Assembly: GCA_038884455.1 (NCBI GenBank)
Contig: JAWABU010000014.1
Coordinates: 1-41,789, forward strand
Length of the DNA: 41,789 nt
Reading direction: 5' to 3'
From: Candidatus Thermoplasmatota archaeon
GTDB taxonomy: Archaea; Thermoplasmatota; E2; DHVEG-1
The position numbers and the translations under genes are program-made. Positions 713 through 21,073 of the stretch are shown piece after piece (the stretch's first letter is position 1; every line of letters starts with the position of its first letter). Below the pieces are notes generated by a model that worked only from the letters and a program-made list of their open reading frames with translations, made no database searches and had not been told where the DNA came from.

Positions 713-2431
713 ATAAAACAGCAATTAACAATAAAATTGTTAATTGGAAATCTTCTTTTTCTATCAATTCTTATTATCATTGCATCACGTTCATTATCTG
801 TTATCTCAGGAACACCATTTCCGTTAGCAATTATTACTTCAAATTCTATGAGTCCTTCACTTTTCGAAGGGGATCTCGTCGCGTGGACACCAACAAACAT
901 CGATGATGTCAAAATAGGAGATGTCATCGTTTTTAAAAGTTGGTTAAGCTGGCCTGATGAAAAGCTGGTTGTTCACCGTGTTGTTGGAATAAAAACTATG
1001 TGGGGTCGACCAGCGCTAGAAACCAAAGGAGATGCAAACGAATATACCGATCAATCTGGACCACATATCCCTGAACCATACATCCAAGAAAAACGATTTA
1101 TCGGAAAAGTTTTATCAGTTGGATCGCAACCATTGAAAATACCGTTTGTTGGGTATATTGGAATCCTTATTACCCAAGGATTTAATGCTTTATCACAACC
1201 ATCTGCAGCAAAAGGGACCCTGACGTATGTTGGCGTTTTCACTCCTTTAACCATATCGGTCGTCTTACTTGTAATATCCCTGTTTATATTACCTGACCGA
1301 GCAAAAACATATAAAGAAAAAATCAGACTCAATATTTTTGAAACACAACCGCTCAACATCAAAAACTTATTTTCATTCTTTTTAACCATCTTTGTGTTAT
1401 TATTAGTATTAGTTCATTTTTTTGCTTTTGACTCAACACCTGCAACAGTTGGTGTTGGTGAATTCCCTGAAAAGAGTGGGTTTGAACTTGGATCTATACC
1501 CTCGGGAAAAACAGGACCAATGCGATATTTACCTGTGATCAACCCTGGGATAATGCCTGTGAAGGGTATCGTATTTGGTTCCGGTGAACTGAAAGATTTT
1601 GTAAACCGAACACTATTTACTATCGATCCTGGAGAAATAAGAAATCTTGGCATTACGGCAACAATACCGAATGGAACTCAGAACGGTTCATTTCTTGGGG
1701 AAATTAAACTATATTCATCTCCAATCTGGTTTATTTTTCCTGATGAATTTATTAGAGAATGTTTACATCATGATGGTCAATCTACTGTACTCATTCTTGA
1801 TGTTCTCGCAGCAGGTATCCTCACCGTCTGCACAATAACCTTAATTGTCACGTCAGCATACATAAGTATGAAATATAGAATTTTCGAAATTGACATATCA
1901 TGGAGACGAGTATCGAAATTCTTAATCAACAGAAGAGTTATTCAGAGAATATCGACAGTAAAACATAAAACGAAAGTAACCTTCAATCAGCATGTTGGAT
2001 GGATTTTACGAACAAATATAGTACACCTTGATGTAAAACCATTGATTCTTGCATCAACCATTTTAGTACCTTTTTTATTATTGTTAACTAGCGAATTATT
2101 AGCAATGGTTGTGGCATCGATTGCAGCTGGACTTTGTGCATATTTTATCCATTGCAGAACGAGAGCAAAAATTATCTTAACATCAAGTTTTGCGTTGATT
2201 TTTGGCTGTATTTATATTATTGTGAAAACACAGTACAATCTTATGACCAGTGATCGAACACTACTTGAATCAACAGCACTTGGTCTTGGAGCAATCGGCA
2301 TTTATCTCTTAGTTCTCGCTTTCTTTTTGATTCCTTTATCTCTTGTTACATGGTATATGACTTATCAAATCCGAAATGTTAAAGAACAAAAAGATCCATT
2401 ACTTATACTAGAAGGGAGCTGCGACCTGTGA
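713..2431 (+). CDS. Signal peptidase I, SipW/ER type, with large membrane extension
   Basis: A membrane serine protease that removes signal peptides from exported preproteins. The N-terminal ~130 residues carry the family motifs: an N-terminal membrane span, the catalytic serine in SNSMSP (S45), a VVHRVVG box whose histidine (H88) replaces the bacterial lysine, and TKGDAN (about 104-109). These mark the archaeal/ER class. The whole protein is ~572 residues, far longer than the usual 150-250. The extra ~400 residues hold several hydrophobic spans around an outside domain with beta-strand character (nt ~1430-1740). Start: GAGGAGGGG at 698-706 is followed six bases later by an in-frame ATA at 713. 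The first conventional codon, TTG 737, is about 30 bases from that site. The adjacent secreted protein is a plausible substrate. Peptidase identity is firm; the role of the extension is unknown. Confidence 0.85.
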   Translation: MKQQLTIKLLIGNLLFLSILIIIASRSLSVISGTPFPLAIITSNSMSPSLFEGDLVAWTPTNIDDVKIGDVIVFKSWLSWPDEKLVVHRVVGIKTMWGRPALETKGDANEYTDQSGPHIPEPYIQEKRFIGKVLSVGSQPLKIPFVGYIGILITQGFNALSQPSAAKGTLTYVGVFTPLTISVVLLVISLFILPDRAKTYKEKIRLNIFETQPLNIKNLFSFFLTIFVLLLVLVHFFAFDSTPATVGVGEFPEKSGFELGSIPSGKTGPMRYLPVINPGIMPVKGIVFGSGELKDFVNRTLFTIDPGEIRNLGITATIPNGTQNGSFLGEIKLYSSPIWFIFPDEFIRECLHHDGQSTVLILDVLAAGILTVCTITLIVTSAYISMKYRIFEIDISWRRVSKFLINRRVIQRISTVKHKTKVTFNQHVGWILRTNIVHLDVKPLILASTILVPFLLLLTSELLAMVVASIAAGLCAYFIHCRTRAKIILTSSFALIFGCIYIIVKTQYNLMTSDRTLLESTALGLGAIGIYLLVLAFFLIPLSLVTWYMTYQIRNVKEQKDPLLILEGSCDL

Positions 2432-2451: not shown

Positions 2452-3717
2452 ATGGGGTTGTTTAAAAAAAATAAAAAAGATACCCAGATACGTGGTGATA
2501 CCTCACAAATTCTTCAAGAGCAACCTAGTGATAAAATAAAAAAGAAAAAACGTATTGGTTTTGGTCATAAACAAAAGAAAGACAAGATCCAACACAACCA
2601 ATCTCAAGAGACACCTCAAACAGATCAGTTAATTATGAATATTCATCAGCAAACTAATCTTTATCCCCATAAAAACAGTCAACCAGGTAAACAGGAAGTT
2701 AATACCGTTCAAGAACCAGATATTTTTCTTGAAGATACTCTTGCTGATCATGATTTATCAAAACAATCAAAAGATTGGAACCAAGTTCAAAAACGGAATG
2801 CCCTCCTACAGAAGGACGCAAAAGGAAAACCGGTGTTCCTTGAAGATACCGGTGAACAACTTGGAGTTGTATTTGATACAATCAAGGATTCCGACAATAA
2901 GATAATTGGATATAAAATTAAGGACAGTAAATCTGATGCAATTCTCAGTTTTCCCCTTGACCAATTCGACGAAGATAAAAATGGCCTTATTTTTGTCCCG
3001 AGTTGGTATACCAAAGGATTAAAAACTATAGAAAAACTTGAGTTTAAAGATCGTATTTCTCCTGAACTTGCATGGCTATTAAAGGATCAAACGATCTCCG
3101 ACGAAGAACTCTACAATATTTTTGTTAAACATGATGATGTGATTGCAAACTATATGCAAGAATCCATAGCACTTCGGGAGTTGTTAGAAAACAGATTGAA
3201 AGCTCTTGAAAAAGAGCGGTTAAAATTAAAAGAAGATCTTATGGATTTAACCGAAAAACGCCTGATTAAAGACATTGACCGAAGGACATTTTCAGAAATA
3301 GTTCTAGAACATCGCCGAAAGGTTAATGTTATAGATGTAAACATAAAAAAATGTAAAGAGCTGTTCAATCGTCTCGAAAAGACCTCATTTGGTATGCTTG
3401 GAAAAACTATTCAATCTCGAATTGTACAAAAACAAAAAAATGAACCCAGCACCGAACAGCGATACAAAACGCAGATTCAACAAGAGATATTTTCTTCTGA
3501 AGATAACAAGTATAAAGAGAAATATGAAAAAATAAAAGTGTTATATGATGAACTTGAAGAGGAATACAAAAATCTTAAAAATATGTTGAATGCAAAACTT
3601 GATGATGGTTTTGAAAATAAGTATCATGAGCTAAAAAATAACTATGATGAGCTACTTGCGGAATACGATGAATTAAAATTAGCGGTAGAAAAACTCTTAC
3701 AAAAGAATAACGTCTAA
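2452..3717 (+). CDS. PRC-barrel domain protein with C-terminal coiled coil
   Basis: 421 residues, starting at ATG 2452 nine bases after a GGAGAGGGAG ribosome site and 20 bases after the signal peptidase stop, so probably co-transcribed. Order of parts: a basic Lys/Gln-rich disordered tail (about 1-110); a small beta-rich segment (about 123-185: GKPVFLEDTGEQLGVVFDTI then IIGYKIKD) that reads as a PRC-barrel; a helical region; and long coiled coils (about 230-300 and 340-420). Soluble, with no signal peptide. PRC-barrel proteins in archaea serve as adaptors, including in cell division and organisation. An adaptor or scaffold role beside the giant coiled-coil gene is inference. Confidence 0.65.
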   Translation: MGLFKKNKKDTQIRGDTSQILQEQPSDKIKKKKRIGFGHKQKKDKIQHNQSQETPQTDQLIMNIHQQTNLYPHKNSQPGKQEVNTVQEPDIFLEDTLADHDLSKQSKDWNQVQKRNALLQKDAKGKPVFLEDTGEQLGVVFDTIKDSDNKIIGYKIKDSKSDAILSFPLDQFDEDKNGLIFVPSWYTKGLKTIEKLEFKDRISPELAWLLKDQTISDEELYNIFVKHDDVIANYMQESIALRELLENRLKALEKERLKLKEDLMDLTEKRLIKDIDRRTFSEIVLEHRRKVNVIDVNIKKCKELFNRLEKTSFGMLGKTIQSRIVQKQKNEPSTEQRYKTQIQQEIFSSEDNKYKEKYEKIKVLYDELEEEYKNLKNMLNAKLDDGFENKYHELKNNYDELLAEYDELKLAVEKLLQKNNV

Positions 3718-3836: not shown

Positions 3837-6800
3837 ATGTCAGAGGATTTCATACGAGGGGAAAAACAATCGATTCATAACCAGAGTGCTTCAGAAAATA
3901 TCTTTTTTCTTGATGATAGAACTCCTGGTTTCATTCTCAATAAAAAGGGTGTAATCGTAGCAACAAATGAAGCTTTCTGCTATCTCATTGGTTATTCTCA
4001 AGAAGATATCCTCGGCTGTAACATTGAAAATACGAATTTTCTGACTGAAGAATCACGACAACAGATGATGTTTCGAAATGTTTCCCGTTTAGTTGGTAAA
4101 GAAAAACCGTCATTTATGCTTCATGTTAAAACAAAGAAAGGAGATCTTCTTGATTTAGAGATAAATGCCCAACCATATATGAAAAATGGTAAAAATGAAG
4201 GAGAAATCAACATCGTTGTCAACAGGAAAGGAATAGACGTTTTTAAAAATACAGGTATTACTGAGGAAAAGAACATTCAAAACAGTATGTTTACTCATAA
4301 ATCAGATGAACATATCCTCAGGAGAGAGAATGAAGAAATCATGAGATTAAAATCAGATTTAAAAGAAAAGATTATTGAATTAAATAACCAAGAACGGGAT
4401 GTATCAAAGATGACTGAACAATTAAGAATAAGTAAGCTTGAATTAGAAGAAAAAAACCATGAAATTCGACAATTACAACTCGAAGTAACAAGCAGAGATC
4501 AAAAAATTGAAAACAAAAACAGGCAAATCGAAGAAATACAAAAAAATCTTCAACAGAAAGAAACTGAACTCGAAGAAAAAAACTATGAGATTACTCGATT
4601 AAAAAACGATATTGATAAGTACATGAGACGTTTCTCAGTAAAAGAAGAAGAATTTCAAAAATTATTTAATTCCTATGAAAAAATACAACAAGAGGCAATC
4701 AAGCAAGAACAAGAACTACGACAGAAAAAACAAGAAGTTGAGCAATTACAACAGTTAGCAGATAAAACACAAGAAAAACTCAAAGTACTCTCCGATGAAG
4801 TAACTGAAAGAAACGAGATTATTGAAGATTTTAAAAAGCAATTAGAAAATTATGAACAAAAACTTATAGAAAATACAAAACTCATTGAGAAACTTCAACA
4901 AGAAGTAAACACCAGAGAAACAGAAAGTACAATGCGAAACAATGAAATACAACGTTTAAACGAAGAATTACTCAGATTACAACAGATGCTCAACGAAAAA
5001 AATAATGAAATTCGTCAGATACAAGAAATCTGCCAAAAACAAGAACAAGAAAAACTTCAATTACAATCTGAAGTAAATAGAAGTTATCAATCATTAAAAA
5101 CTAAAGAAGATGAACTAAAAACCAAAAACGAAGAGATTATCCAGAAACACAACGAGCTCAAAGAAAAAGAACAAGAGATCAACGAAATTATTTCAAAGCT
5201 TGAAAACAGAGACAGATATACTATTTATCAAAGTGATCTTATCGAAGATCAAGAGAAAGAAATCTCTAATTTAAAAAGAAATTTAGAAGAAGCAAATAAG
5301 ATCATTGAACTGACAAAGCAGGATTGTGAAGAATTAAATGCGAAGATAAAAGAAAAAGAAAAAGAACTATGTACCAAAAATACCGAATTACAAATGCTCA
5401 AACAAGAGCAGGAAAAAAACCAAAAAAAGAATGTAGAGATACATACCGAATTACAACAGATACAACAACAATGTATCTTGCTACAAAATCAACTTCACGA
5501 AACAACTGACGAAAATAATCGATTAAAACAAGAAATTGTACAATTAACTAAAACCTCAAAAAATCTAGAAAATCAAATATCCCAAATGCAGACTATTTTT
5601 AATCAGACAAACGAAGAAGTAAAATCCCGGGAGCAAGAATTACAAAAAATTCAAGAGTTATTGCTTAAAAAAGACCAGGAATGTGAAGAATTAAAATTGA
5701 AATTAGAAAATAAAAACAAATATATCCTCCGCCAAAATACTTTATTTGAAGAACAAGAACGTACAATTCAACAACTAACAACAGATATAGAAGTAAACAA
5801 AAAAGAATTATCTCAAGCAAAACAAGAGTTAGAACAGAAAAAACAACAACTTGCTCTTTCATGTTCACAAATTTCCCAAGTACAACAGGATCTTGAAAGC
5901 GAACGGCGAACGCTTGAAACAACAGGATTTGAGCTCGAAGAAACAAGAACCGAGCTTATGAAAACTCAAAATATATTAGAGATGCGTACAAAAGAACTCG
6001 AGGAAAAACAACAATCATTACTACAACTTACTGAAGAATTAAGAAGAAAAGAAGAAAATACTGTGAAACTAATAGATGAAGTACAAAAAAATAAACATAC
6101 CTTAGAACATCAATCAAAAGAAATAACTGCTTTGCATACTAAAATTCAAAATATGGAACAATTCGCTCTCCATCAAGAAGAAATACTTAAAAATAAGGAT
6201 AACGAAATCATTGGCTTGAAAATCGAATTAGACCAAATATCACGAGAATTAAAAAATAAACAGAAAGATTTTGAAACAGTTAATCATCAACTGAATTTTG
6301 AAAGATCTCAGGTAGAACTTCAGAAGATAGAGATAAACCGCTTACAAACACTATTAGATAGTCAAGAATCAACCCTTATTTCAGTTCAAAATGAACTCAA
6401 AAATACAAGAGATGAACTGATAAACAGCAATAACTGTATTGAAGAAAAACAAAAAGAACTTGATCAAACAAAATTTGAACTTGAAAACGTACAAAGAGAA
6501 CTTGCACAAGAAAAAAATGACCCAAAAAGAAAAGAATTAAAAGAAACACGGAAGGAACTTGAAACATTACGTATCATATTTGAAAAAAATAAAGCAGAAC
6601 TAGAAGAAAAAAATCATCTCCTTGAATTATTAAAATCAGACCTAAAAATAAAAAATGATGCAGTAGATGAACTACAAAAACAAATAATCGATCAAAAAAC
6701 AGCTATTACTCATAAAGATGCAGTGATCTGTCAAATACAAACTGATTTAAGGCAGTTAGAAACAGAGATAGTTACAAAAGATAATATCATTGAAAATCTT

Positions 6801-9800
6801 GAAAAACAACTTTCAGAACAACAAACGACTTTGACGAAGAAAAATGACCAAATACATCAACTTCTCGAAGAAAATCAGAAAATTCAAAGAGATTTAGACG
6901 ATACTAAAAAATTAATCAATGAGAAACTGTGGGAAGTTAACGAAAAGGATCAGGAGATCCACTTTTTAAAAACAGATGTTGAAAACAAAATAAAAGAAAT
7001 CGCGCAATTAAAAAAAGAGTCATTGGATACTCAAGAGTTATTAAACTCAACACAACTCAACCTTCAACAACTTACTGAAGATTTAAAACTAAAAGAAAGC
7101 GACTTACAGATAAGAACAGCAACTCTTGAACAAATGCAAAATGAAATAATACATCTCCAGAATGAACTGAAAATAAGAAATGACATCATTGGTAATCTAG
7201 ACGGTCAACTTTCAGAACAACAAACAAAAATTATACTACAATCAAACACGATTGAGCAGTTGCAACAAAAGATACAGATCTCTTCAGAAAAAATAAATAG
7301 TATCTATGAAGAACTAGAAGAAAAAAAGAGAAATGTAAACGAACTTGGAGAAAAACTACATAAAACAGAATTGCAACAAAAAATTCTTGAGGAGCAATTG
7401 GTAACAAAAGATTCACATATCAATAGTTTGTCTTCAGAATTAAATCTGATGCATAACCAGCTATCTGCATTAAAAAATGTTATGACATCTGCTCTTTTGA
7501 TTTTGGATTCTGAAAATAGAATCGTATCGTGGAATGAATCCGCATCAAAATTACTGAATTTATCAAATGAAAATTCTCGGGAGAAAACAGTTTTTTCGCT
7601 CTCCTTTATGTCTGATCCACGGATTCAAACTGGTTTACATCATTCGATAAAAGATAAAAAAATGGTAGTTGAAAAATCTATCTTTTTAGCAACTGGCAAT
7701 GGCAAGAATATCTTAACCGATATTATCAACATGCCGATTCAAGATCCGCATGGAGTGATACAGGGAACAATGATAGTTATTGACGATGTAACAGATAAGG
7801 TGGCTTTACAATCTGAAATACAGTTGAAACAAGAGGAGATCACAGCATTGAAGAATGATAATCACACTCTTTTGAAAAAAGTGTCCTGTATTGAGAAAGA
7901 ATTAAAAACAACCGAAGAAAGATTAAAAGAAAGCATGCAGAGTCTTGATCAAAAACAAAACATAGTGAGTACGTTATATACTGAGATACAACAGAAAGAC
8001 GAGGCAATCTCTCTTCTCAATCAAGAGTTGGACCATAAGAACCGTGATTTATTAGAAACAAAAAACGCACTGAGTAACAAAGAGCATGATCTTGCTAATC
8101 TGCAAAACAAATGTGTTTTCTTACAAAATGAAATTACAGCGATAAAAGAAAATTTATCTAAAAGTATGGCAGAAAAAGAAGCAATTGAACAATCAGCAAA
8201 AGAGATTGAGCAAAAACTCAAAGAAAAAGAAAACAGTATCACAGAATTACAAAAGATATGTGATCAGCATAAATATGTAGTACAACAGAAAGAAACAGAA
8301 CTTGTTTTTGTATCAACAGCGTTAGATAATCTTAAAAAAGAATTGGCCCAAAGAAATGATCAGATAATTGAATTAAAAAGTGAACTAGCGCAAAAGGAAT
8401 TACTATTGCAATCAAAAGAAATAGAAATTGAAAAACAGCAGGTAGTAGTATGTCAGATGAAAAACGAAAATGAACAATTGAGAAGTGAGACTGATGCAAC
8501 AAAACAAGCAATACAACAATTTACAGAAGAATTGAAACAATTACAACTCCTCAGTACTCAGTTAAAACAGGATGTCGAAGAAAAAGACAAATCTATCAAA
8601 GTACTTTCTGAAGAAAAAAATATGCTCAATAGTCAAATCATTGAAAAACAAAATGAGATGACAGAATTGCAAAACACAATTCAACAAACGCAGCAAGAAC
8701 TCGAAATAGTAAGAAAACAATTAACAGCAACTGAGTGTGAAGTAGTACAACTGAAAAATGAACTGGCAAAAAATCAGACAATACTTGAAATGACAAATAA
8801 AAATCTTCAAGAGAAAAAACAAGAACTTGAAACTGCCCGAAATGAGCAACGAGATGTGCTGATACAACTTGAGAACGTTTTACATGAAAAAAACAGCATA
8901 CAAAAAGAACTAGAGCATCTAAAGGATACTAGTGAAACACTTGAGCACGACCTCAGAATACGAAACGAAATAATTGAACAGATGCAAAACGAATTTATGA
9001 AAAATCAAACACGGATTACAGAAAAAGAAGCGAAAATTAACCTTCTTCAAACTAAAGTATCTGAACAGGAAAAAAACTTAACGATAAAAAACGCAGAACT
9101 TCAAGAATTACAGGTTACCTACGAAAGACAAAAAGCAATGATTCAACAATTAGAACGAGAAAAAGAACAAATTAACAGTTTATTTATCGGGATGCAGGAC
9201 TCCTGTACCTATCCGATAATCACCTTAGACAAAAACAATAAAATTTTAAATGTAAATAAAAATGCAGAGGAATTCTTTGGATTGTCCAAATCTGAAATGT
9301 ATGGACAACAAATCAATTCCATCGGTCTCGGCATACAAGAACGAGTTTCCGAAATGTTTAAGCTAGTTAAAGAACAGAAAAAACCGAGTACAATCCAATC
9401 TGTAAGTATAGAAACAAAACAGGGAGCACGCTATTTAACTGATATCTCAAACATCCCGATTATCGATGCCCAAGGAACCGCCATCGGATCAATAATGCTA
9501 CTGCAAGATAAAACATGGCTGATCAATGCACAAGCAGATATACGACGAAAAGAAAAAGAATACAAAGAGTTACTTATTCGAAATGAAGAACTATCGAAAA
9601 AACTCACGATAGCTGATGAAGAACTGAGGGCTACAAATACCATACTTGAACAAAAAAATAAAGATATCGTTGAAAAACAAAACAAGATTGAAAATTTACT
9701 CTCCATTATTCAAAATCAAAAGAAATCTAACGAATATAAAGATTCAGAAATTCAAAAATTACGATCAATGCTTGAATCAAAAGAAACGACGTTTAAAAAA

Positions 9801-12299
9801 ATTGAATCTGAATTTGAAAAGATTACAAAAGAATTACAAGAAAAAAATAACGATATTATTCAAATGAAAGATAAGCTGTTTTCGACAGAACAGCAGCTAG
9901 AAGAAAAAAATAAAGAATATACACACCTAAGTAATGAGTTTGAATCACTTCAAAAACAACTACAAGTAATCACAATGGAGAAAAATCAAATCCTTGAACA
10001 AATGAGAAATCAAGCAGAAAGACTATTGAAAAAAGAACAGGAAAACAAGCATCTTTTAGAAGATGTGTTAAAAAAGGAAAAAGATTGTGACTGGAAAACA
10101 TCAGAACTTGAAGAAACGCGATGGCTTTTAAACAAAACACAACTGAAAGTTGAAGAATTACAACACACCATTCTATTTAAAGAAAAAGAATTACAACAAA
10201 AACAAGAACAGCTTCAGGAGCTTAAAATATTCCTTGAGCAAAACAGAGATCAATTTAATCAAAGCATTGTAGAAAAAAATAATCAACTAAACCAACTAGA
10301 ATCAAAATTAAAAGAAAAAGAAAAAGAAATATGTCTACTGAATCGAGAGATTGAAAATAAAAATAGAGAAATTACCCTGTTGAATGAAAAAAAGACTCAA
10401 GAAGATGCCATGAAAAATTCTTTGCTACTGCAACAAGAAGAATTAAATAAAAAACAAAATGAGATTAGCCGATTACAGGCTGAAATACAACAAATTACAA
10501 CAGCCGAAGAAAAACTCCAAAACGAATTAGCTGAGCGAAATAAGATTATTGAAGTATTGAAAGATCAATTGACGGAGAGACAGTTGGTCTTAACTCAGAA
10601 AAGTAGCCTTTTTGATCATATCCAAGAACAATTAAATGTCCAAGAAAACAGGATCACAGAAAAAACAAATGAAGTAATCGAATTACAAACAAAGTTACAG
10701 CAAGCAAATTCAGAGTGCCAAAAAGTACAAAAAGAGTGCGATCTGCTGAAGGGTACAGTAAAGCATCTTGAAAAAGAACTCAGTACAAAGACAAAAGATC
10801 TTGATGAAAGTAGAACCAGGCTGTCTTTTGTTGAACAGGAGTTGCAAACAATAAAAAACAACTTTGATGCTCAACTTGCGCATATAACATCACTTGAAAA
10901 AAATCTTGAAAGAAAAAACCAAGAACTGACACAACTTAACAAAGAAAAAATAGACCTTGAAACCATGCTCATTAATGTTCAAAACGAAGGAGCAAAACTT
11001 AGACAACAGCTCATGGAAAATCAAAAACATATAACCTTGTTAAATGACATAAAGGAGGAGAACCAACGATTAAAGCAAGAAGTATTACGTCATCAAAAAG
11101 ATATGAATTTTTTGAAAAAACAGTTTGAAGAAAAACACTTAGTCCGGGAGAAAGATGCAGTACAGAAAACTTTAAAAGAGAAAGAAAAAGAACTCGAAAA
11201 AAAACAAATCGAAATCGAAGAGTTATCTCGAGAATTGAGAGCTAATCAATCAGCGATTAACTGGTTTAAAACAGCTATCGAAAAGCATCAAGCAGAGCTT
11301 TTATCACTTCAACAGAAAAACCGCGAATATGAACTTTCCATCCGGGAATATCAAGAACTTAAATCAACTCTAGAAGAAAAAACAAAAAATATTGAGCAAT
11401 TGCAAAAACAGATCGAATGGTATCAAAATGAAAGACATCAAACACAGAAAAAATTCGAAGAATTGCAACAACAATTTGAGCAGATTTTAGCTGAAAAGAA
11501 CAGGATCGCTCATTCGTTTAATACGGTTACGAATGCGATTCCTTCACCAGTTATTATGACCGATAGAAATCATGCAATTGTTATGATGAACAAACAAGCG
11601 GAATACTATCTTGGAATCCCTACTGAGAAGCTCATGGGACATACGATCTTTGAAGTTGATTCATTAAATAAGGAACGAATCCGATCAGGATTAAAACAAT
11701 CAGAAACTGAGAAAAAACCAGTTAATATTAAATCGATATCGGTTGAAGATACACGGGGTGACATGCACTTGATTGATATTGTGAATATGCCTCTGTTTGA
11801 CAGTTCTGGTGATATCAATGGGTCGCTAATGGTGTTAAACGATGTTACAAATATTAATGAATTACAGGTAGAACTTCAAAAAAAGCAAGAAGAGGTATCG
11901 TCATTGTTAGTAAAATGTGATGAGATATATACTAAATACAAACTTGCTGATGAAGAGCGAACTGCGGTATTAAATGCGCTATCTAACCATCTGAAACCCG
12001 CTGAAGAGAGCACATCAAAGATTGTTAATACTGGTGTAGATCCTACAGAAAAAAACAATATGAGTATCGACGTACAAGAAAATGCTAAATTAGATACGTC
12101 TCATGATGTTGTATCTAGTGGTACCCCAAAAGAATCAGCAGCGATGAATATCTCTATTCAATCGGCAAAACATTCTCCTGCTGAAATGGATCATCTGTTA
12201 CGTGAAAAATTAAAAATCTATGCTGAGATTGATAAGTATCTAGAATCACGGGGGCTTGAGCTAAAAACAAAGAAATTAAAAGATGAAGAAGGTAAATAA
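3837..12299 (+). CDS. Giant PAS/coiled-coil protein (2820 residues)
   Basis: ATG 3837 follows GGTGAGG by seven bases. Four PAS-type sensor domains are visible at about residues 22-135, 1208-1320, 1778-1900 and 2556-2675. The last three share a closing pattern, (L/I)xDIxNxP(I/L)xDxxGxxxGxxxxxxD. Nearly everything between them is uninterrupted coiled coil rich in Glu, Gln, Lys and Leu, with recurring phrases such as ELEEKNHEI. There is no membrane span, histidine kinase, receiver, HAMP or methyl-accepting domain. PAS domains bind ligands or cofactors and mediate dimerisation, so the protein looks like a very long, probably parallel-dimeric scaffold with sensors along its length. It sits upstream of an archaellum locus, so a polar-organising or motility-signalling role is possible but unproven. 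The frame is intact throughout, which argues against a pseudogene. Confidence 0.85.
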   Translation: MSEDFIRGEKQSIHNQSASENIFFLDDRTPGFILNKKGVIVATNEAFCYLIGYSQEDILGCNIENTNFLTEESRQQMMFRNVSRLVGKEKPSFMLHVKTKKGDLLDLEINAQPYMKNGKNEGEINIVVNRKGIDVFKNTGITEEKNIQNSMFTHKSDEHILRRENEEIMRLKSDLKEKIIELNNQERDVSKMTEQLRISKLELEEKNHEIRQLQLEVTSRDQKIENKNRQIEEIQKNLQQKETELEEKNYEITRLKNDIDKYMRRFSVKEEEFQKLFNSYEKIQQEAIKQEQELRQKKQEVEQLQQLADKTQEKLKVLSDEVTERNEIIEDFKKQLENYEQKLIENTKLIEKLQQEVNTRETESTMRNNEIQRLNEELLRLQQMLNEKNNEIRQIQEICQKQEQEKLQLQSEVNRSYQSLKTKEDELKTKNEEIIQKHNELKEKEQEINEIISKLENRDRYTIYQSDLIEDQEKEISNLKRNLEEANKIIELTKQDCEELNAKIKEKEKELCTKNTELQMLKQEQEKNQKKNVEIHTELQQIQQQCILLQNQLHETTDENNRLKQEIVQLTKTSKNLENQISQMQTIFNQTNEEVKSREQELQKIQELLLKKDQECEELKLKLENKNKYILRQNTLFEEQERTIQQLTTDIEVNKKELSQAKQELEQKKQQLALSCSQISQVQQDLESERRTLETTGFELEETRTELMKTQNILEMRTKELEEKQQSLLQLTEELRRKEENTVKLIDEVQKNKHTLEHQSKEITALHTKIQNMEQFALHQEEILKNKDNEIIGLKIELDQISRELKNKQKDFETVNHQLNFERSQVELQKIEINRLQTLLDSQESTLISVQNELKNTRDELINSNNCIEEKQKELDQTKFELENVQRELAQEKNDPKRKELKETRKELETLRIIFEKNKAELEEKNHLLELLKSDLKIKNDAVDELQKQIIDQKTAITHKDAVICQIQTDLRQLETEIVTKDNIIENLEKQLSEQQTTLTKKNDQIHQLLEENQKIQRDLDDTKKLINEKLWEVNEKDQEIHFLKTDVENKIKEIAQLKKESLDTQELLNSTQLNLQQLTEDLKLKESDLQIRTATLEQMQNEIIHLQNELKIRNDIIGNLDGQLSEQQTKIILQSNTIEQLQQKIQISSEKINSIYEELEEKKRNVNELGEKLHKTELQQKILEEQLVTKDSHINSLSSELNLMHNQLSALKNVMTSALLILDSENRIVSWNESASKLLNLSNENSREKTVFSLSFMSDPRIQTGLHHSIKDKKMVVEKSIFLATGNGKNILTDIINMPIQDPHGVIQGTMIVIDDVTDKVALQSEIQLKQEEITALKNDNHTLLKKVSCIEKELKTTEERLKESMQSLDQKQNIVSTLYTEIQQKDEAISLLNQELDHKNRDLLETKNALSNKEHDLANLQNKCVFLQNEITAIKENLSKSMAEKEAIEQSAKEIEQKLKEKENSITELQKICDQHKYVVQQKETELVFVSTALDNLKKELAQRNDQIIELKSELAQKELLLQSKEIEIEKQQVVVCQMKNENEQLRSETDATKQAIQQFTEELKQLQLLSTQLKQDVEEKDKSIKVLSEEKNMLNSQIIEKQNEMTELQNTIQQTQQELEIVRKQLTATECEVVQLKNELAKNQTILEMTNKNLQEKKQELETARNEQRDVLIQLENVLHEKNSIQKELEHLKDTSETLEHDLRIRNEIIEQMQNEFMKNQTRITEKEAKINLLQTKVSEQEKNLTIKNAELQELQVTYERQKAMIQQLEREKEQINSLFIGMQDSCTYPIITLDKNNKILNVNKNAEEFFGLSKSEMYGQQINSIGLGIQERVSEMFKLVKEQKKPSTIQSVSIETKQGARYLTDISNIPIIDAQGTAIGSIMLLQDKTWLINAQADIRRKEKEYKELLIRNEELSKKLTIADEELRATNTILEQKNKDIVEKQNKIENLLSIIQNQKKSNEYKDSEIQKLRSMLESKETTFKKIESEFEKITKELQEKNNDIIQMKDKLFSTEQQLEEKNKEYTHLSNEFESLQKQLQVITMEKNQILEQMRNQAERLLKKEQENKHLLEDVLKKEKDCDWKTSELEETRWLLNKTQLKVEELQHTILFKEKELQQKQEQLQELKIFLEQNRDQFNQSIVEKNNQLNQLESKLKEKEKEICLLNREIENKNREITLLNEKKTQEDAMKNSLLLQQEELNKKQNEISRLQAEIQQITTAEEKLQNELAERNKIIEVLKDQLTERQLVLTQKSSLFDHIQEQLNVQENRITEKTNEVIELQTKLQQANSECQKVQKECDLLKGTVKHLEKELSTKTKDLDESRTRLSFVEQELQTIKNNFDAQLAHITSLEKNLERKNQELTQLNKEKIDLETMLINVQNEGAKLRQQLMENQKHITLLNDIKEENQRLKQEVLRHQKDMNFLKKQFEEKHLVREKDAVQKTLKEKEKELEKKQIEIEELSRELRANQSAINWFKTAIEKHQAELLSLQQKNREYELSIREYQELKSTLEEKTKNIEQLQKQIEWYQNERHQTQKKFEELQQQFEQILAEKNRIAHSFNTVTNAIPSPVIMTDRNHAIVMMNKQAEYYLGIPTEKLMGHTIFEVDSLNKERIRSGLKQSETEKKPVNIKSISVEDTRGDMHLIDIVNMPLFDSSGDINGSLMVLNDVTNINELQVELQKKQEEVSSLLVKCDEIYTKYKLADEERTAVLNALSNHLKPAEESTSKIVNTGVDPTEKNNMSIDVQENAKLDTSHDVVSSGTPKESAAMNISIQSAKHSPAEMDHLLREKLKIYAEIDKYLESRGLELKTKKLKDEEGK

Positions 12300-12315: not shown

Positions 12316-12942
12316 TTACAAGAGAGAAACAACGTTTTTTGTCGAAAAGGGAATGTCGAGGGTTATCGTTCGTATAATACCATTTGGTATCAAGAACGTT
12401 ATACTGAGTTGATCACCATTTTTTATATGAATTTCTTCGGGTGTTTTTATAATAAGGTAGGTTAAATCAGTATGATCATTCAATATATTATGGGCAACAA
12501 GCGAGTTATCGAGGTCATGAATCGAAAGAGCGCTGTAGGTGTTGTTAGAAAGAGTTTCCCATTGAGGATGGGAAAATAAACTATGATGTGTTTGTAGTAG
12601 TTTGGCATTCCCATTGTAGCGAAGTATTTGTACGGTATCACCAGTATTTAGCGTAATCACCATGCTTGAAAGATCAATATTTGCTGTTACAAGTGGTTCG
12701 ATGAGGATTGCAATGTTCCCAATTTGTCGATGAGTATCTATCATTGAATACTGACCTAGTATCCCTTCTATTTGCAGATACGTTGAATATTTCGTTGCTA
12801 CCGTATCAATAATTTGGGTGAGGTTTTCTTTTGTTACACTGTTTGACTGATTGAGTAGTACTGAGGTAGCTGTTGCACCGACGAACAGAATTGTAACGAG
12901 AATGAGGATAGCTGTTAATCCAAGAGCGCCGTGAGTGTTCAT
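12316..12942 (-). CDS. Divergent archaellin-like protein with minimal signal peptide
   Basis: 208 residues. The start MNTHG followed by ALGLTAILILVT is a class III (prepilin/archaellin) signal with a leader of only five residues, Gly at -1 and Gly at +3. It then has the ~25-residue hydrophobic helix expected of an archaellin, and a beta-rich domain with archaellin-like phrases (MVITLNTGDTVQILRYN). It lacks the VGIG(T/A)[11 protein letters not shown] core shared by the other archaellins here, so it may be a minor filament protein, a basal or hook-like subunit, or another type IV pilin. Its 3' end lies 16 bases from the end of the giant PAS gene, and its promoter region is divergent from the LSm-archaellin gene. 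Confidence 0.65.
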   Translation of the reverse strand: MNTHGALGLTAILILVTILFVGATATSVLLNQSNSVTKENLTQIIDTVATKYSTYLQIEGILGQYSMIDTHRQIGNIAILIEPLVTANIDLSSMVITLNTGDTVQILRYNGNAKLLQTHHSLFSHPQWETLSNNTYSALSIHDLDNSLVAHNILNDHTDLTYLIIKTPEEIHIKNGDQLSITFLIPNGIIRTITLDIPFSTKNVVSLL

Positions 12943-13167: not shown

Positions 13168-13249
13168 GTTAGTTGAGAACATTGTACATGTTAAAATTTA
13201 CCATGCCGTTAAAAAGCATGGGCAATGAAAGAAAACGAAGGTGAAACGT

Positions 13250-14155
13250 ATGGAAAAGAAATATATGGAAAGGCTGGTTGGAAAGTACTGTAAAATAGTC
13301 ACAAAAGAACCTGGAGAAGAACGAGCAAGTGTCGTAACCGGAATATTAGAAGATGTCGACTACAAAGACGGTTTTATTTTAGTTGACTCAAATCAAGGCT
13401 TAGGCTGTCTACGAATTAATACAATCGTCGCCATCAAACCGGGAAATAAAAAACGACAAGAAAAAAGAAATATTAAATCACACACCGATGCCGATGTAGG
13501 TATTGGTACGCTCATCGTCTTCATTGCGATGGTTCTCGTCGCAGCAGTCGCAGCAAGTGTTATTATACAAACAAGTGAAACTTTGCAGCAACGAGCACAA
13601 AGCGTCGGTACACAAACCATCAGAGAAGTATCATCCGGTATAGTCATTGATGATGTTATTGGATATACCAATGCAAATAAAACACGAATTAACTATATGC
13701 TTATCTCAATACGACCTCGCGCAGGATCACAAGATATCGATTTAAAGCTCTGTGAGTTACTAATTTTATACAACAAACTCTCCGTACTAACATTGAATAC
13801 CTCATTAATTTCTCCAGTGAATACAGGATACAGAACTGTATTTGAAACACCGATAGCAACAAATCATTCAATATGGCTCATGAACAAAACAACCAATGCA
13901 ACCTTCGCAGCAATCGCATTACATGATCCTGATGCCTCCATTTCAAACACCCAGGGTATCAACAGTGGAGACCGAGTATATATTCTTGTGAATCTCAGTG
14001 CAGTGCTGAATACAAATCAAAACGATTGGACATATTCAGGACTAGAAGCCCGTGGTTCGATATCTGGATCGATAAAGCCTGAGATTGGTGCAAAAGGTGT
14101 CTTTGAAATCACTGCACCTGCAGTATTTAGCAAAAGAATCGTCCAAATGTGGTAA
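13250..14155 (+). CDS. Archaellin with N-terminal LSm-like domain
   Basis: 301 residues from ATG 13250, which sits just after AAGGTGAAACGT; a GTG at 13241 overlaps that ribosome site. Residues ~5-65 look like an Sm/LSm fold: LVGKYCKIV, then VTGILEDVDYKDGFILVDS, then CLRINTIVAIKP, matching the strand-turn order of Sm1 and Sm2. A basic linker (GNKKRQEKRN) leads to a normal archaellin signal and core, [17 protein letters not shown], starting near residue 82, and a ~200-residue archaellin domain. Ordinary archaellin leaders are about 5-20 residues; this one is ~81. No in-frame ATG, GTG or TTG lies between the LSm part and the signal, so the fusion is real in this sequence. Cleavage by ArlK would free the LSm-like part in the cytoplasm. 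Archaellin identity is firm; the LSm call rests on pattern reading. Confidence 0.8.
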   Translation: MEKKYMERLVGKYCKIVTKEPGEERASVVTGILEDVDYKDGFILVDSNQGLGCLRINTIVAIKPGNKKRQEKRNIKSHTDADVGIGTLIVFIAMVLVAAVAASVIIQTSETLQQRAQSVGTQTIREVSSGIVIDDVIGYTNANKTRINYMLISIRPRAGSQDIDLKLCELLILYNKLSVLTLNTSLISPVNTGYRTVFETPIATNHSIWLMNKTTNATFAAIALHDPDASISNTQGINSGDRVYILVNLSAVLNTNQNDWTYSGLEARGSISGSIKPEIGAKGVFEITAPAVFSKRIVQMW

Positions 14156-14192: not shown

Positions 14193-15716
14193 TTATTTTT
14201 CTGGTTTTTCAGAGTTGGGTTCTTTCTTAATTTGTTTAATAACTGTAATCTCTGCTTTTTCACCTTTGTAAATTGCTGGTTTTAGATAGACTTCTGCAGA
14301 TTTCTTTTCATTATTTTTTGTTGAAAAAATCGTACAGTAATTGGAAACATCATTTCCCTTCAATCGATTAAGATAATATCGTTCGACATCAGATAATCCT
14401 TCAGGAGCAATAAAATCAAAAAGGCTTTTTTCAAGAAGTTCTTCAGATGAAAAACCAATAAAATCAGTAAACAATGCATTGACTTGTTTTAAAATGCCAC
14501 GTTGGACGACAGCCGCACATTCTGAAAGATCACTAACAAGATCTTGAGGTTCAGATATCTCTTGACTCTTTTCTTGACGTAGAGATTGGACCGGTTCATT
14601 CGCTGGAGATAGGTGCTCTAATTGTTGCTGTAACAGCCGTTCTTCTTCAAATAAAGCATTCCTTCGTTTTTCAATTTCTGCTTCAGCCTCTATTAATTTT
14701 TCTTTCCAACTGCTAAATTCAGCGATTTTCTGATCAATTTCTTTCCGTTCTCTAAGCAGATCTGATTCTTTTTTAAGCAGCTCTTGTCTCTGCTGATCCA
14801 ACTGCTGTAAGCCGAATGCTATCTCTTCTTTTTTTCGTTTAAACCCAAAAGGATCAAAAATATCAAATCTACCTTTCTTGGGAGCGCGTTTTGAAAGTTG
14901 TTTTTTTCTTAAATGGAAAATTTTATTATTTGACACATCTGCCGAATTGAGAGATGGCTGATTTTTTTTCACGTGTTGTAAATTTTGTTCGAGTTGAATA
15001 TTCTTTCGCTCTAAGGATCTATTTTTTTTATCAAGATCTTTTAGTTTTTGATTTAAAATAGAATATTTTTTTGATAAATCACGAATCTTTTTTTCCATAG
15101 CGTCCTGGTCTTTCATCTTTTTTAAAGTGCCATCAGCCTTTTCCTGATGAGTATCATATGTATCAAGAAATCTACTATTAAATATATCTCTACTGTTTGA
15201 TGGTGATTTTTTGTCTATGGATGCATCAGCAGTAATTGTCTGATCGTTTAGTTCAAAAGACGTTTGAATTGTATCCTGGAATGTATTCTGTAGACAATCA
15301 TTTTCATGCAGAATCGAATTGCCATGTTGGAGATAGGGGAGACTTTGTGTAGAATGTCCCTGACTATCCGGTATAGTCCCAATGAAGCAAAAGATTGGAT
15401 CTGACGATTTTGTGTTTAAAGGAAAACCATCCCATAAAATAGTAATTTCAGCACCATTCTTCTTTTTAATTGGGAGTTCAACACCTTGAATAAATCCCTG
15501 AGTTTCTATTTTTTCTAGTTGTTCATACCATCTTTTGATAAAGCGCAAAGGAACTAAAAAATCAAGTGTTTTTTGCCGTATAATATCTCCACGATGATAC
15601 TCCGTAATTTTTTGACATTCATGATCAAATTGAACAATAGTTTTATCTCTAGAAATACCAAAAATAAGTATTCTTGCTGTATGCTTTTCTAGATTTGTTG
15701 AATCGATACTATCCAT
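14193..15716 (-). CDS. PAS/coiled-coil protein, cytoplasmic
   Basis: 507 residues from ATG 15716. A PAS-like domain at about 10-130 (RDKTIVQFDHECQKITEYHR onward, ending GFPLNT...IFCFIGTIP) is followed by a spacer, a long coiled coil (about 200-400), and a second PAS-like domain (about 405-490: ILKQVNALFTDFIGFSSEEL). There is no kinase, receiver or membrane segment. It resembles a small version of the giant PAS protein upstream and is divergent from the archaellum operon. Start: GAGGAG abuts the ATG with no spacing, so leaderless use or the in-frame ATC nine bases beyond the site should be considered. The open frame extends to 16034, but that part is antisense to arlC and its promoter. A sensory role in motility is inference. 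Confidence 0.75.
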   Translation of the reverse strand: MDSIDSTNLEKHTARILIFGISRDKTIVQFDHECQKITEYHRGDIIRQKTLDFLVPLRFIKRWYEQLEKIETQGFIQGVELPIKKKNGAEITILWDGFPLNTKSSDPIFCFIGTIPDSQGHSTQSLPYLQHGNSILHENDCLQNTFQDTIQTSFELNDQTITADASIDKKSPSNSRDIFNSRFLDTYDTHQEKADGTLKKMKDQDAMEKKIRDLSKKYSILNQKLKDLDKKNRSLERKNIQLEQNLQHVKKNQPSLNSADVSNNKIFHLRKKQLSKRAPKKGRFDIFDPFGFKRKKEEIAFGLQQLDQQRQELLKKESDLLRERKEIDQKIAEFSSWKEKLIEAEAEIEKRRNALFEEERLLQQQLEHLSPANEPVQSLRQEKSQEISEPQDLVSDLSECAAVVQRGILKQVNALFTDFIGFSSEELLEKSLFDFIAPEGLSDVERYYLNRLKGNDVSNYCTIFSTKNNEKKSAEVYLKPAIYKGEKAEITVIKQIKKEPNSEKPEK

Positions 15717-15775
15717 CTCCTCAACCCAATACGTTCTAGTGTATCTAGATAGATTAACTCGACAATGACAAAACG

Positions 15776-15788
15776 AATATATTTTAAT
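15776..15788 (-). promoter_or_regulatory. TATA-like element for the PAS/coiled-coil gene
   Basis: On the minus strand an A/T-rich TTAAAATATATTC-like box lies about 60 bases before the ATG at 15716. It shares the ~200-base divergent region with the archaellum operon promoter. Confidence 0.35.
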
Positions 15789-15850
15789 ATATTTTGATTT
15801 TTTCGATAAACCGCTTCTTGGATAAAAGACTCGGAAAAAGTAAGTAAAAG

Positions 15851-15858
15851 TATAAATA
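15851..15858 (+). promoter_or_regulatory. TATA box of the archaellum core operon
   Basis: TATAAATA, 65 bases before the probable arlC start at 15923. A second candidate, GTTTATATC at 15869-15877, would give a leader of about 25 bases. Either places the GAGGAGGGG ribosome site (15908-15917) within the transcript. Confidence 0.45.
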
Positions 15859-15922
15859 CCTGAATACGGTTTATATCTAGTAAGAGCAAGTAATAATGTG
15901 AATACAATGAGGAGGGGTTGCA

Positions 15923-16861
15923 ATAAAACTAAAACTGGGAAAAGAGGAGACTGTTGAGAAGCCGATACCAAGCGGAGGGGGAACACAAGAGATAAAGCCT
16001 GCAGAAACACCGAAACCAAAAGAACAAGCAACACAAGAGCAAAAACAAACTGTAGATGCGCTACGAACCGTTATAAAAGTTGATCAAAAAACACCCTCTG
16101 CTGAAGAAGCAAAAAAACCAGAACAGAAAAAAGAGCAAAAACCTCAAACTCCAGATACAAAAGAAAAAGCACCACCAACAATTCCAACGATACCAAAAAT
16201 ACCTCAGCCGCAAGCTGCAGCAGCACCTGCTGGAGGTTCTCGAGAAGATTTAGAACAGCGGCGAAATATCCTCCAAAGTATTAAGGACTTTGATTTTCAG
16301 ATAAAGAAAAACCAGGAGGATATCGGAAAATTAACAGAAAAGATTGATAGTCTTACCAAGGATCTTGATGACTTAGTCAGCCTCTATGAAATTGTCTCAG
16401 AACAGATGAATCCTTTTGTTGGCCTGTCAAAAGTTACAAAAAAACGACTTGATGCACTTGAAAATTTTACTAAAGAAATTGAAACATTAAATACACGAAT
16501 TGGAGAAATAGAATCGGTTCTCGAAAAGAATAAAATGATTTTAGATGGTAAGATACCACAACCTCAAGTAAAACCAGCTGTACAAAACAAGCCTGAATTA
16601 AAACCAACGGAAGCGGTATCAAGCAGTAGCGACAAACAAAGTATACCTGTTCAAGGAGAAACAGATGAAAAGAAATTGAGCCAAGAAATACCAAACTCTT
16701 CTGTCGTCGAACCTCAAATTAATTCTTCGTCAGATTCAGATGTATGGAGTAATTTTACCGATGAGGATCTTGATCGAATCCTAGCAGAATCTCTTTCATC
16801 ACTTATGATTGATCAAAACATTGATTCATTGATAAATGATTTTTTACTAAATTTAAAATAA
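15923..16861 (+). CDS. arlC: Archaellum protein ArlC (FlaC/FlaCE-like)
   Basis: About 312 residues. ArlC, ArlD and ArlE form the euryarchaeal archaellar cytoplasmic switch complex, which links the motor to chemotaxis signals. Seen here: a Pro/Lys/Gln-rich disordered N-terminus (about 1-105), a coiled coil, and the diagnostic LVSLYEIVSEQMNPFVG segment of FlaC-type proteins (about 150-168), then more coiled coil and an acidic tail. Start: GAGGAGGGG at 15908-15917 is followed by in-frame ATA at 15923. No ATG, GTG or TTG occurs in frame before 16406, and starting at 16406 would cut the diagnostic segment in half. It is the first gene of the core operon. Motif identity is strong; the ATA start is an inference. 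Confidence 0.85.
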   Translation: MKLKLGKEETVEKPIPSGGGTQEIKPAETPKPKEQATQEQKQTVDALRTVIKVDQKTPSAEEAKKPEQKKEQKPQTPDTKEKAPPTIPTIPKIPQPQAAAAPAGGSREDLEQRRNILQSIKDFDFQIKKNQEDIGKLTEKIDSLTKDLDDLVSLYEIVSEQMNPFVGLSKVTKKRLDALENFTKEIETLNTRIGEIESVLEKNKMILDGKIPQPQVKPAVQNKPELKPTEAVSSSSDKQSIPVQGETDEKKLSQEIPNSSVVEPQINSSSDSDVWSNFTDEDLDRILAESLSSLMIDQNIDSLINDFLLNLK

Positions 16862-19444: not shown

Positions 19445-21073
19445 ATGACAAAGATGGAAAAAGATGAAGAAGAAAAACTGATTCGTGATAATCCTCATTT
19501 GAAACGATATCTTGATGAAATCAGCAGTAAAATGCCCCGTCCTGTTTTTTATAGCAAAGTACCTCGCGATTTAAAAGGAGAAAAAAATCCAAATATCATC
19601 TATCCAACAAAAGGTGTTGTCTTCATCCATATTTATACTCCTGAAGGCGCCGAATTTAAAGAATATCATTCTGTTGAGCCAGTATTAAACGAGGTTGAAG
19701 AAAAAAAGCGAGATTATATCCTTGAAAAGATTTACGAACGTGCACCCTACCGAGAGCGCGTGAAAACTGATGAAGAGATTAAAAATGCGGTGAAAAAGTT
19801 TCTCGATGAAATAACAATCCTTGATGAAAACGCTGGGAGCGAATTTAAACTATCAAAAGGGAAAGTCCGCATCTCGTCTGTAGAACGGATGGATATTGAA
19901 TACGATATTTTAAAAAATATTGTTGGTGGTGGACCACTGGAATGCTTTATGCGTGATCCGTACATTGAAGATATCCATATCATAACTGGAGAAAATGTCC
20001 ATCTGATCCATAAGGTCTTTGAGATGGTTAGAACCAATATTCATATCGATAAGAAATGGGCGAGTCGTTTTTCACAGGAGTTCGCAGAAAAAATTGGAAG
20101 CCCGGTAAGCGAAGGACAACCAATTGCCGATGGTACATTACCTGATGGAAGTCGAGTGAATATTATCCATAGTAAAGATGTGAGTTTAAAGGGGCCGACG
20201 ATGACCGTTCGAAAATTCAGCGAAGTTCCAATTAGTATCACACAACTGATTAGTTGGGGAACTCTGTCAACAGCAGTCGCTGCCTATTTATGGCTCTGCT
20301 TGAATTACGGCCGAAGTATCTTTGTCTGCGGTGAAACCGCGTCTGGAAAAACAACAACATCAAATGCAATGTTTGTATTTATTCCTCCTGAGAAGAAAAT
20401 TTTTTCTGTCGAAAACACTCCTGAAGTTCAAGTTCCCCATGCTGTTTGGCAACAACTCCTGACACGAACAACTGGTCCGAAAGAAGGACATATCCTTGAA
20501 GGTGATCTCCTAAGAGCAGGTCTCCGTTCCCGTCCTGATTATATTATCCCTGGAGAAACTCGAGGTATTGAAGGTCGCGTCGTTTTTCAAGCTATGCAAA
20601 CTGGTCATCCTGTAGTAACAACGTTTCATGCAGGATCAGTTACCAAAGTTATTCAACGGTTCACAGGTCATCCAATTAACATTCCAAAAACATTTATGGA
20701 TAACCTTGACGTCGTATTAATTCAGATGGCCGTTGAAAGAAAAGGAAAAAGGCTTCGCCGGGTACTCTCAGTCGATGAGATCGAAGGATACAACAAAGAA
20801 GTCGATGGTATTATGTCAAGAAAAGCATTCGAATGGAACCCGGTTGATGATTCTCATATATTTAAAGCATATCGGAACAGCTATGTACTCGAGCAACGCA
20901 TAGCAAAAAACGCAGGATATACCGATGTCAACCAGATTTATGATGAATTCGATCGCAGAAAACATATTCTTGATCGTATGATTGAGGAAAAGATTTTCGA
21001 TTATTACGAAGTCGTACAATTTATTTGGACATTCTATCGCGAGGGAGAAAAAGGTCTACCGATAGCACTCTAG
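19445..21073 (+). CDS. arlI: Archaellum motor ATPase ArlI (copy 1)
   Basis: 542 residues, the usual length for ArlI, the hexameric ATPase that powers both filament assembly and rotation. An N-terminal domain (about 1-190) leads to GGGPLECFMRDPYIEDI, then the RecA-like core with a standard Walker A, GETASGKTT (about 296-304), Walker B region PDYIIPGE (about 364-371) and His box TTFHAG. Walker B reads IIPGE where many secretion ATPases have IIVGE. ATG 19445 follows GGAGGGGATAGGATT. An ArlI paralogue follows 13 bases after its stop. As this copy keeps the canonical P-loop, it is the more likely principal motor. Confidence 0.93.
   Translation: MTKMEKDEEEKLIRDNPHLKRYLDEISSKMPRPVFYSKVPRDLKGEKNPNIIYPTKGVVFIHIYTPEGAEFKEYHSVEPVLNEVEEKKRDYILEKIYERAPYRERVKTDEEIKNAVKKFLDEITILDENAGSEFKLSKGKVRISSVERMDIEYDILKNIVGGGPLECFMRDPYIEDIHIITGENVHLIHKVFEMVRTNIHIDKKWASRFSQEFAEKIGSPVSEGQPIADGTLPDGSRVNIIHSKDVSLKGPTMTVRKFSEVPISITQLISWGTLSTAVAAYLWLCLNYGRSIFVCGETASGKTTTSNAMFVFIPPEKKIFSVENTPEVQVPHAVWQQLLTRTTGPKEGHILEGDLLRAGLRSRPDYIIPGETRGIEGRVVFQAMQTGHPVVTTFHAGSVTKVIQRFTGHPINIPKTFMDNLDVVLIQMAVERKGKRLRRVLSVDEIEGYNKEVDGIMSRKAFEWNPVDDSHIFKAYRNSYVLEQRIAKNAGYTDVNQIYDEFDRRKHILDRMIEEKIFDYYEVVQFIWTFYREGEKGLPIAL

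Follow-up and report, generated by a model that had tools for sequence, protein, structure and literature searches.

A coiled-coil protein family with optional PAS modules at the archaellum locus of Candidatus Thermoplasmatota: a putative scaffold or tether

What might a protein of 2820 residues, built of PAS domains and coiled coil, be doing next to an archaellum operon? The question is raised by the window, a stretch of 41,789 nucleotides that is the entire source contig (JAWABU010000014.1) of a Candidatus Thermoplasmatota MAG of 1.70 Mb, estimated to be 97.9% complete; the relatives of its archaellum ATPases are found in Ca. Thermoplasmatota MAGs. The open reading frame in question, here called the giant, occupies positions 3837 to 12299 of the plus strand, exactly the extent and length given in an earlier sequence-only reading. 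That reading had also pointed out the nearby archaellum genes, and the full set arlC-DE-F-G-H-I1-I2-J does start at 16406, 4 kb downstream of the giant, and runs to 24531 on the plus strand, according to gene calls and homology. Between the giant and arlC lie two archaellin-like genes and a second PAS-coil-PAS protein. Our literature search found no published account of PAS-bearing archaellum proteins in Thermoplasmatota.

The two tandem ArlI ATPases of this operon (19445-21073 and 21087-22739, plus strand) are ~61% identical, and both carry an apparent Walker A motif. Most of the family's arl loci have such a pair, G026 showing only one, and the operon described for Thermoplasmatales archaella has a single ATPase (PMC12448462). 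A phosphofructokinase gene (pfkA, 24600-25673) follows arlJ, as it does in many family genomes.

Modules of the giant

From end to end the giant reads PAS-coiled coil-PAS-coiled coil-PAS-coiled coil-PAS-tail, and no transmembrane segment is predicted in it. Pfam PF00989 matches four stretches (E 2.7e-34, 118 bits vs a cut-off of 22.6), which a local HMM places at residues 18-138 (positions 3888..4250), 1205-1326 (7449..7814), 1779-1900 (9171..9536) and 2557-2678 (11505..11870), all on the plus strand and in keeping with the centres near 80, 1265, 1840 and 2615 proposed before. By heptad analysis the three coils between them, at residues ~150-1204 (4287..7448), ~1327-1778 (7815..9170) and ~1901-2556 (9537..11504), again on the plus strand, sum to about 2160 residues and have a computed contour length of ~0.32 µm, close to the earlier estimate of ~2300 residues and ~0.3 micrometre.

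These coils contain a single proline in 2155 residues. Their hydrophobic period is 3.50, with a peak power ~10 times the median, and 63-66% of 42-residue windows are strongly heptad-phased, compared with 4% in shuffles. One heptad register extends from ~140 to 865; breaks occur only near 870-900, close to Pro896 and the one break of the first coil, and at ~2400. One of the core positions is 77-93% LIVMF, the other 39-51% with 21-27% lysine. Its 3.5-residue period and long, nearly proline-free stretches place the giant among long heptad coiled coils, and we infer that the coil is a parallel dimer. Pfam matches to crescentin (PF19220), Fez1 and ATG16 reflect generic coil, fall mostly below or barely above cut-off, and were discarded.

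The four PAS domains are of two types. The last three are 24-32% identical to one another and 18-21% identical to the first, and a PAS tree across genomes sets the N-terminal type (type A) apart from the internal type (type B). The sequence-only reading, which had found the last three more alike and suspected duplication of a PAS plus coiled-coil unit, is borne out to this extent: identities and tree support an origin common to the internal PAS-coil units and separate from that of the N-terminal PAS. Only 13 family genomes have a type-A PAS match at E<1e-48, the next match being at 5e-23, and none was found outside the family among 80 genomes of the class. Type B varies between 0 and 3 copies per orthologue, and many orthologues are devoid of PAS. 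Across the internal domains the heptad register is preserved, with a shift of 0.01 residue at the second PAS and -0.14 at the third; in the giant and its orthologues the shift is ≤0.21 residue across 14 of 16 internal PAS, which do not represent 16 independent events because they are homologous to one another.

Sensors of the histidine kinase type that combine PAS and coiled coil resemble the giant in their PAS fold and in-register helical linkers, and the solved structures nearest to the giant's PAS are sensor kinases. The giant differs in having no kinase, HAMP, GGDEF or receiver domain, and in coil segments of 450-1050 residues. In line with the previous claim that an output domain is absent, Pfam finds only PAS and generic coil matches in the giant, and the same holds for 8 homologues. 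Lacking a catalytic or output domain by Pfam, the giant falls outside the histidine kinase/PAS signal-transducer class.

An intact 1935-residue version in a related genome, with an overall dN/dS of 0.25 against its sister species (pair G067/G035), speaks against the giant being an assembly artefact. The coils of this pair have a dN/dS of 0.22-0.27; in this one sister pair, coils and PAS domains are under purifying selection.

A conserved slot and an upstream CdvA-like gene

The giant ends in a conserved C-terminal motif, EKLKIYAEIDKYLESRGLELKTKKL (12156..12296, plus strand), whose pattern EIDKxL...LKTKKL is kept from 92- to 2820-residue forms. A profile of the 50 C-terminal residues of the giant gave a single match in each of 25 of the 45 family genomes searched; a PDB sequence search with the motif returned no meaningful match. 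In 20/20 genomes with a readable flank, the coil protein adjoins the equivalent of the gene at 12316..12942 (minus strand), a convergent neighbour coding for a minor archaellin-like protein, and beyond it, wherever the contig continues, lies the equivalent of 13241-14155. Core arl genes are on the same contig in at least 10 of these 20 genomes; elsewhere the contig ends.

The proteins in this slot include short forms of 92 (G026), 274, 415, 453 (three genomes), 467, 487 and 533 residues, and longer forms of 955, 976, 996, 1001, 1016, 1194, 1422, at least 1856, 1935 and 2820 residues, a roughly 30-fold range of which the giant is the upper end. Since one and the same slot holds 92 to 2820 residues, coil length as a conserved ruler is ruled out. 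The sequence-only reading had asked whether length and linkage to arl genes are conserved among homologues: linkage of the slot is, in all 20 resolvable genomes, and length is not. As far as these sequences tell, what is kept of the coil protein is its two ends. A 1023-residue form in G032 has no recognisable C-terminal motif, and genus g7, which holds the nearest relatives, has a diverged short coil form ~17 kb from arlC.

The neighbour at 13241..14155 (plus strand) codes for an archaellin with a 75-residue Hfq/Sm-like barrel ahead of its class III signal, according to Pfam and a structural model. The barrel is modelled at pLDDT 81, has Hfq among its best fold matches (E about 0.03) and is ~70-89% identical across most genera; cleavage of the signal peptide would free it into the cytosol. 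Where the archaellin portion has decayed, the barrel still exists as an ORF of its own, and there are stand-alone paralogues too. An obligate partnership between the Sm-like domain and the giant was rejected, given these paralogues and the retention of the domain in genomes without the coil protein.

Upstream, 119 bp from the giant and on the same strand, the gene at 2452..3717 codes for a PRC-barrel and coiled-coil protein. CdvA consists of a PRC domain and a three-helix coiled coil, and polymerises (PMC12818579). PF05239 (PRC barrel) is detected in 9 of 10 members of the CdvA-like protein (best 1.4e-6), and the best PDB matches of the model are to the Sulfolobus islandicus CdvA filament (9s9g; E 3e-9, TM 0.71 over about 187 residues). 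The product thus combines a PRC barrel, by PF05239, with a CdvA-type coiled-coil domain, by the 9s9g fold, and the best matches of the model point to the CdvA filament fold. The link to CdvA is weakened because the match is structural, the mean pLDDT of the model is 66 (71-92 in the barrel and following helices), and the Pfam CdvA family, PF18822, is matched weakly in two members and below its curated cut-off (best 24.5 bits vs 30, in G008 only). Like Sulfolobales CdvA, the protein places a helical coiled-coil domain after a PRC barrel; it differs in a disordered N-terminal stretch of 118 residues, in a C terminus formed by a long helix, and in having its gene beside arl rather than cdvBC.

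The CdvA-like gene is intact in exactly those 10 arl-bearing genomes that have a giant with type-A PAS, and absent from the other 19 arl-bearing genomes (Fisher p 5e-8, the tree not being corrected for). A switch within one genus (g13) follows the same pattern: G035 and G067 have both the CdvA-like gene and type-A PAS, and G012, G029, G064 and G066 have neither. In every such locus the upstream neighbour of the CdvA-like gene is one for a signal-peptidase S26-like multi-pass membrane protein (here 737..2431, plus strand, 564 residues, with a Pfam match just below cut-off). Larger sequence relatives of 541 and 601 residues (29-31% identity) occur in two genomes, as paralogues elsewhere in the genome (L118:4858-6483 and L119:5417-7222). 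A search for ESCRT-III (Snf7) in 45 genomes gave no match, at a weak sensitivity that left the positive control itself below cut-off; membership of the CdvA-like gene in an ESCRT division set was provisionally set aside on this result. The C-terminal motif, the upstream CdvA-fold gene and the Hfq/Sm-like archaellin next door had all escaped the sequence-only reading.

Archaellum loss and the possible role of the coil protein

The giant may act in the cytoplasm as a parallel coiled-coil scaffold or tether for the archaellum region, a reading that we regard as about evenly poised. It fits a protein whose ends are conserved while its length drifts, whose register is protected, and which is cytoplasmic and fixed in its locus; further support comes from the slot shared by all 20 resolvable genomes, co-occurrence with arl, the C-terminal motif, purifying selection, a partner of CdvA fold and the precedent of FrzS (below). 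The family as a whole would then presumably be an archaellum-locus scaffold or tether with optional in-register PAS modules. The co-occurrence is incomplete: among 45 genomes, 23 have both coil protein and arl, 6 arl only, 6 the coil protein only and 10 neither (Fisher p 0.009, again without correction for the tree). The six arl-bearing genomes without a detected copy weaken the scaffold reading, single absences being soft because the genomes are mostly draft MAGs of partial completeness.

In five genomes (G001, G004, G007, G010 and G068) arl is gone from its place, but the coil ORF stays open with its C-terminal motif intact. A single contig of G001 carries, between coil protein and pfkA, a scrap of arlJ and pieces of both archaellin-like genes riddled with stops; the coil ORF there has 0 stops in 1031 codons, where ~92 would be expected in random sequence of the same composition, and the archaellin fragments beside it carry several. 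G004 retains an arlJ scrap as well, and the loss is clean in G010 and G068. In G007 an archaellin remnant (L090:1233-2240) begins as a 13241-type gene and ends as a downstream-type archaellin, which suggests that the arl operon was deleted when archaellins recombined. After arl loss pfkA remains as a landmark. The giant is seemingly split in G001 into two distant ORFs (L053:7618-10713 and L054:8819-10900), the N-terminal PAS half near CBS-domain genes and the C-terminal half near pfkA; in G010 the CBS genes, the giant and pfkA are all on one contig.

The coil protein therefore lacks the strict co-occurrence with archaella that would be expected of a polar cap component, and since all five arl-lost genomes keep it, part of its function may lie outside archaella. 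It is neither a fixed-length ruler nor strictly archaella-dependent. Much shorter homologues, and homologues in non-motile relatives unlinked from arl, had been named by the sequence-only reading as evidence against itself; each is borne out in part, since the former exist and the five archaellum-less genomes retain the protein. Could it be a general cytoskeletal fibre, or one for cell shape or polarity, that sits beside the arl operon by chance and serves the archaellum secondarily? The open coil ORFs and intact motifs of these five genomes, the stop-free frame of G001 next to decayed archaellins, and the filament fold of the CdvA-like partner all agree with this. However, 10 of 16 arl-less genomes lack the coil protein, as against 6 of 29 arl-bearing ones, and where the type-A PAS form persists without arl, the CdvA-like gene is absent or decayed. 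We hold a general fibre to be rather improbable.

In an extension of the scaffold reading, the PAS-coil giant and the upstream CdvA-fold filament protein would co-assemble into an archaellum-associated cytoskeleton, polar-cap-like and responsive to cell state through its PAS domains, in which a division-type fold is reused for motility; this we put forward as tentative and consider unlikely as it stands.

The PAS domains might instead read a ligand or redox state and use the coil to signal to the ArlCDE switch, as a motor input other than Che. PAS held in register within a continuous coil is what signalling helices require. A second PAS-coil-PAS protein (PAScc2, 14193..15716, minus strand) adjoins arlC in most arl loci, and CheF and CheW are found in only 3 and 5, respectively, of 45 genomes. 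Against a sensory fibre stand the many orthologues without PAS, the missing output domain of the giant, and the CheF, CheW and CheW-domain protein of CheA size in the window's own genome; we judge it decidedly unlikely. The giant as a stand-in for a missing chemotaxis system follows no simple rule either, because this genome has Che genes and its giant-bearing relatives are mostly without them. As for PAScc2, the mechanical ORF (14193-16034) probably starts too early, the Met at 15716 fitting homologues better, and in the PAS tree the C-terminal PAS of two PAScc2 homologues clusters with the one at the giant's N terminus (96/86).

That a short docking protein has gained coil and PAS units by duplication, with no function of their own, would suit the 30-fold length range in one slot and a C-terminal end conserved in all, but is very unlikely given the purifying selection on coils and PAS in the sister pair, the register kept across PAS inserts and the N-terminal PAS that tracks the CdvA-like gene.

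Precedents and significance

For the scaffold or tether reading, the closest layout is that of FrzS and AglZ of Myxococcus xanthus, which share with the giant an N-terminal signalling-type domain, a long coil and a functional extreme C-terminal tail. In type IV pilus motility, polar placement depends on each of these three parts of FrzS (PMC1974792), and the archaellum is a relative of that motility system. The likeness is one of layout, homology not being shown: FrzS has a receiver-like N-terminal domain where the giant has PAS, and a coil of 258 residues vs ~2160.

The euryarchaeal polar cap is a cytoplasmic structure beside the archaellum motors, 200-600 nm across and ~3 nm thick, of unknown composition (PMC5517150; PMC8978795). 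It has been described in Pyrococcus, Thermococcus and Halobacterium; the Thermoplasmatales member Oxyplasma meridianum showed no typical one (PMC12448462), and none is known in the uncultured archaea of the giant's group. The coil contour of ~320 nm falls within its dimensions, a weak match in size because relatives of the giant are far shorter. The coil protein is a possible polar cap component, tied to archaella here by genomic linkage. Of the fibre, spacer or organiser for motility first envisaged, a motility-linked, PAS-bearing scaffold or tether survives, and a spacer matched in length to the cell pole does not, with forms of 92 to 2820 residues and many without PAS.

We suggest a model in which the C-terminal motif attaches the protein to a fixed partner close to the archaellum, such as the motor, ArlCDE or an envelope protein, and the coil either bridges a distance that varies or forms bundled fibres. 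A partner or ligand would be bound by the N-terminal PAS, which in the long forms may also link to the CdvA-like filament protein of the upstream gene. PAS occupancy could alter how the helices of the coil pack, and thereby tune the placement or anchoring of archaella. Coil length would be free to drift, with the two ends conserved.

For the polar cap, the uncharacterised protein structure by which archaella are anchored and positioned, the coil family provides named candidate genes with a predicted docking motif in one conserved archaellum-locus slot. The long PAS-bearing form travels with a CdvA-fold protein where a weakly sensitive search found no ESCRT-III, which suggests a CdvA-type filament outside ESCRT-based division. 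With 92 to 2820 residues, 0 to 4 PAS domains, and archaella present or recently lost, the family forms a natural series for the effects of coil length and PAS number, and the giant is a testable candidate for a scaffold that holds archaella in place.
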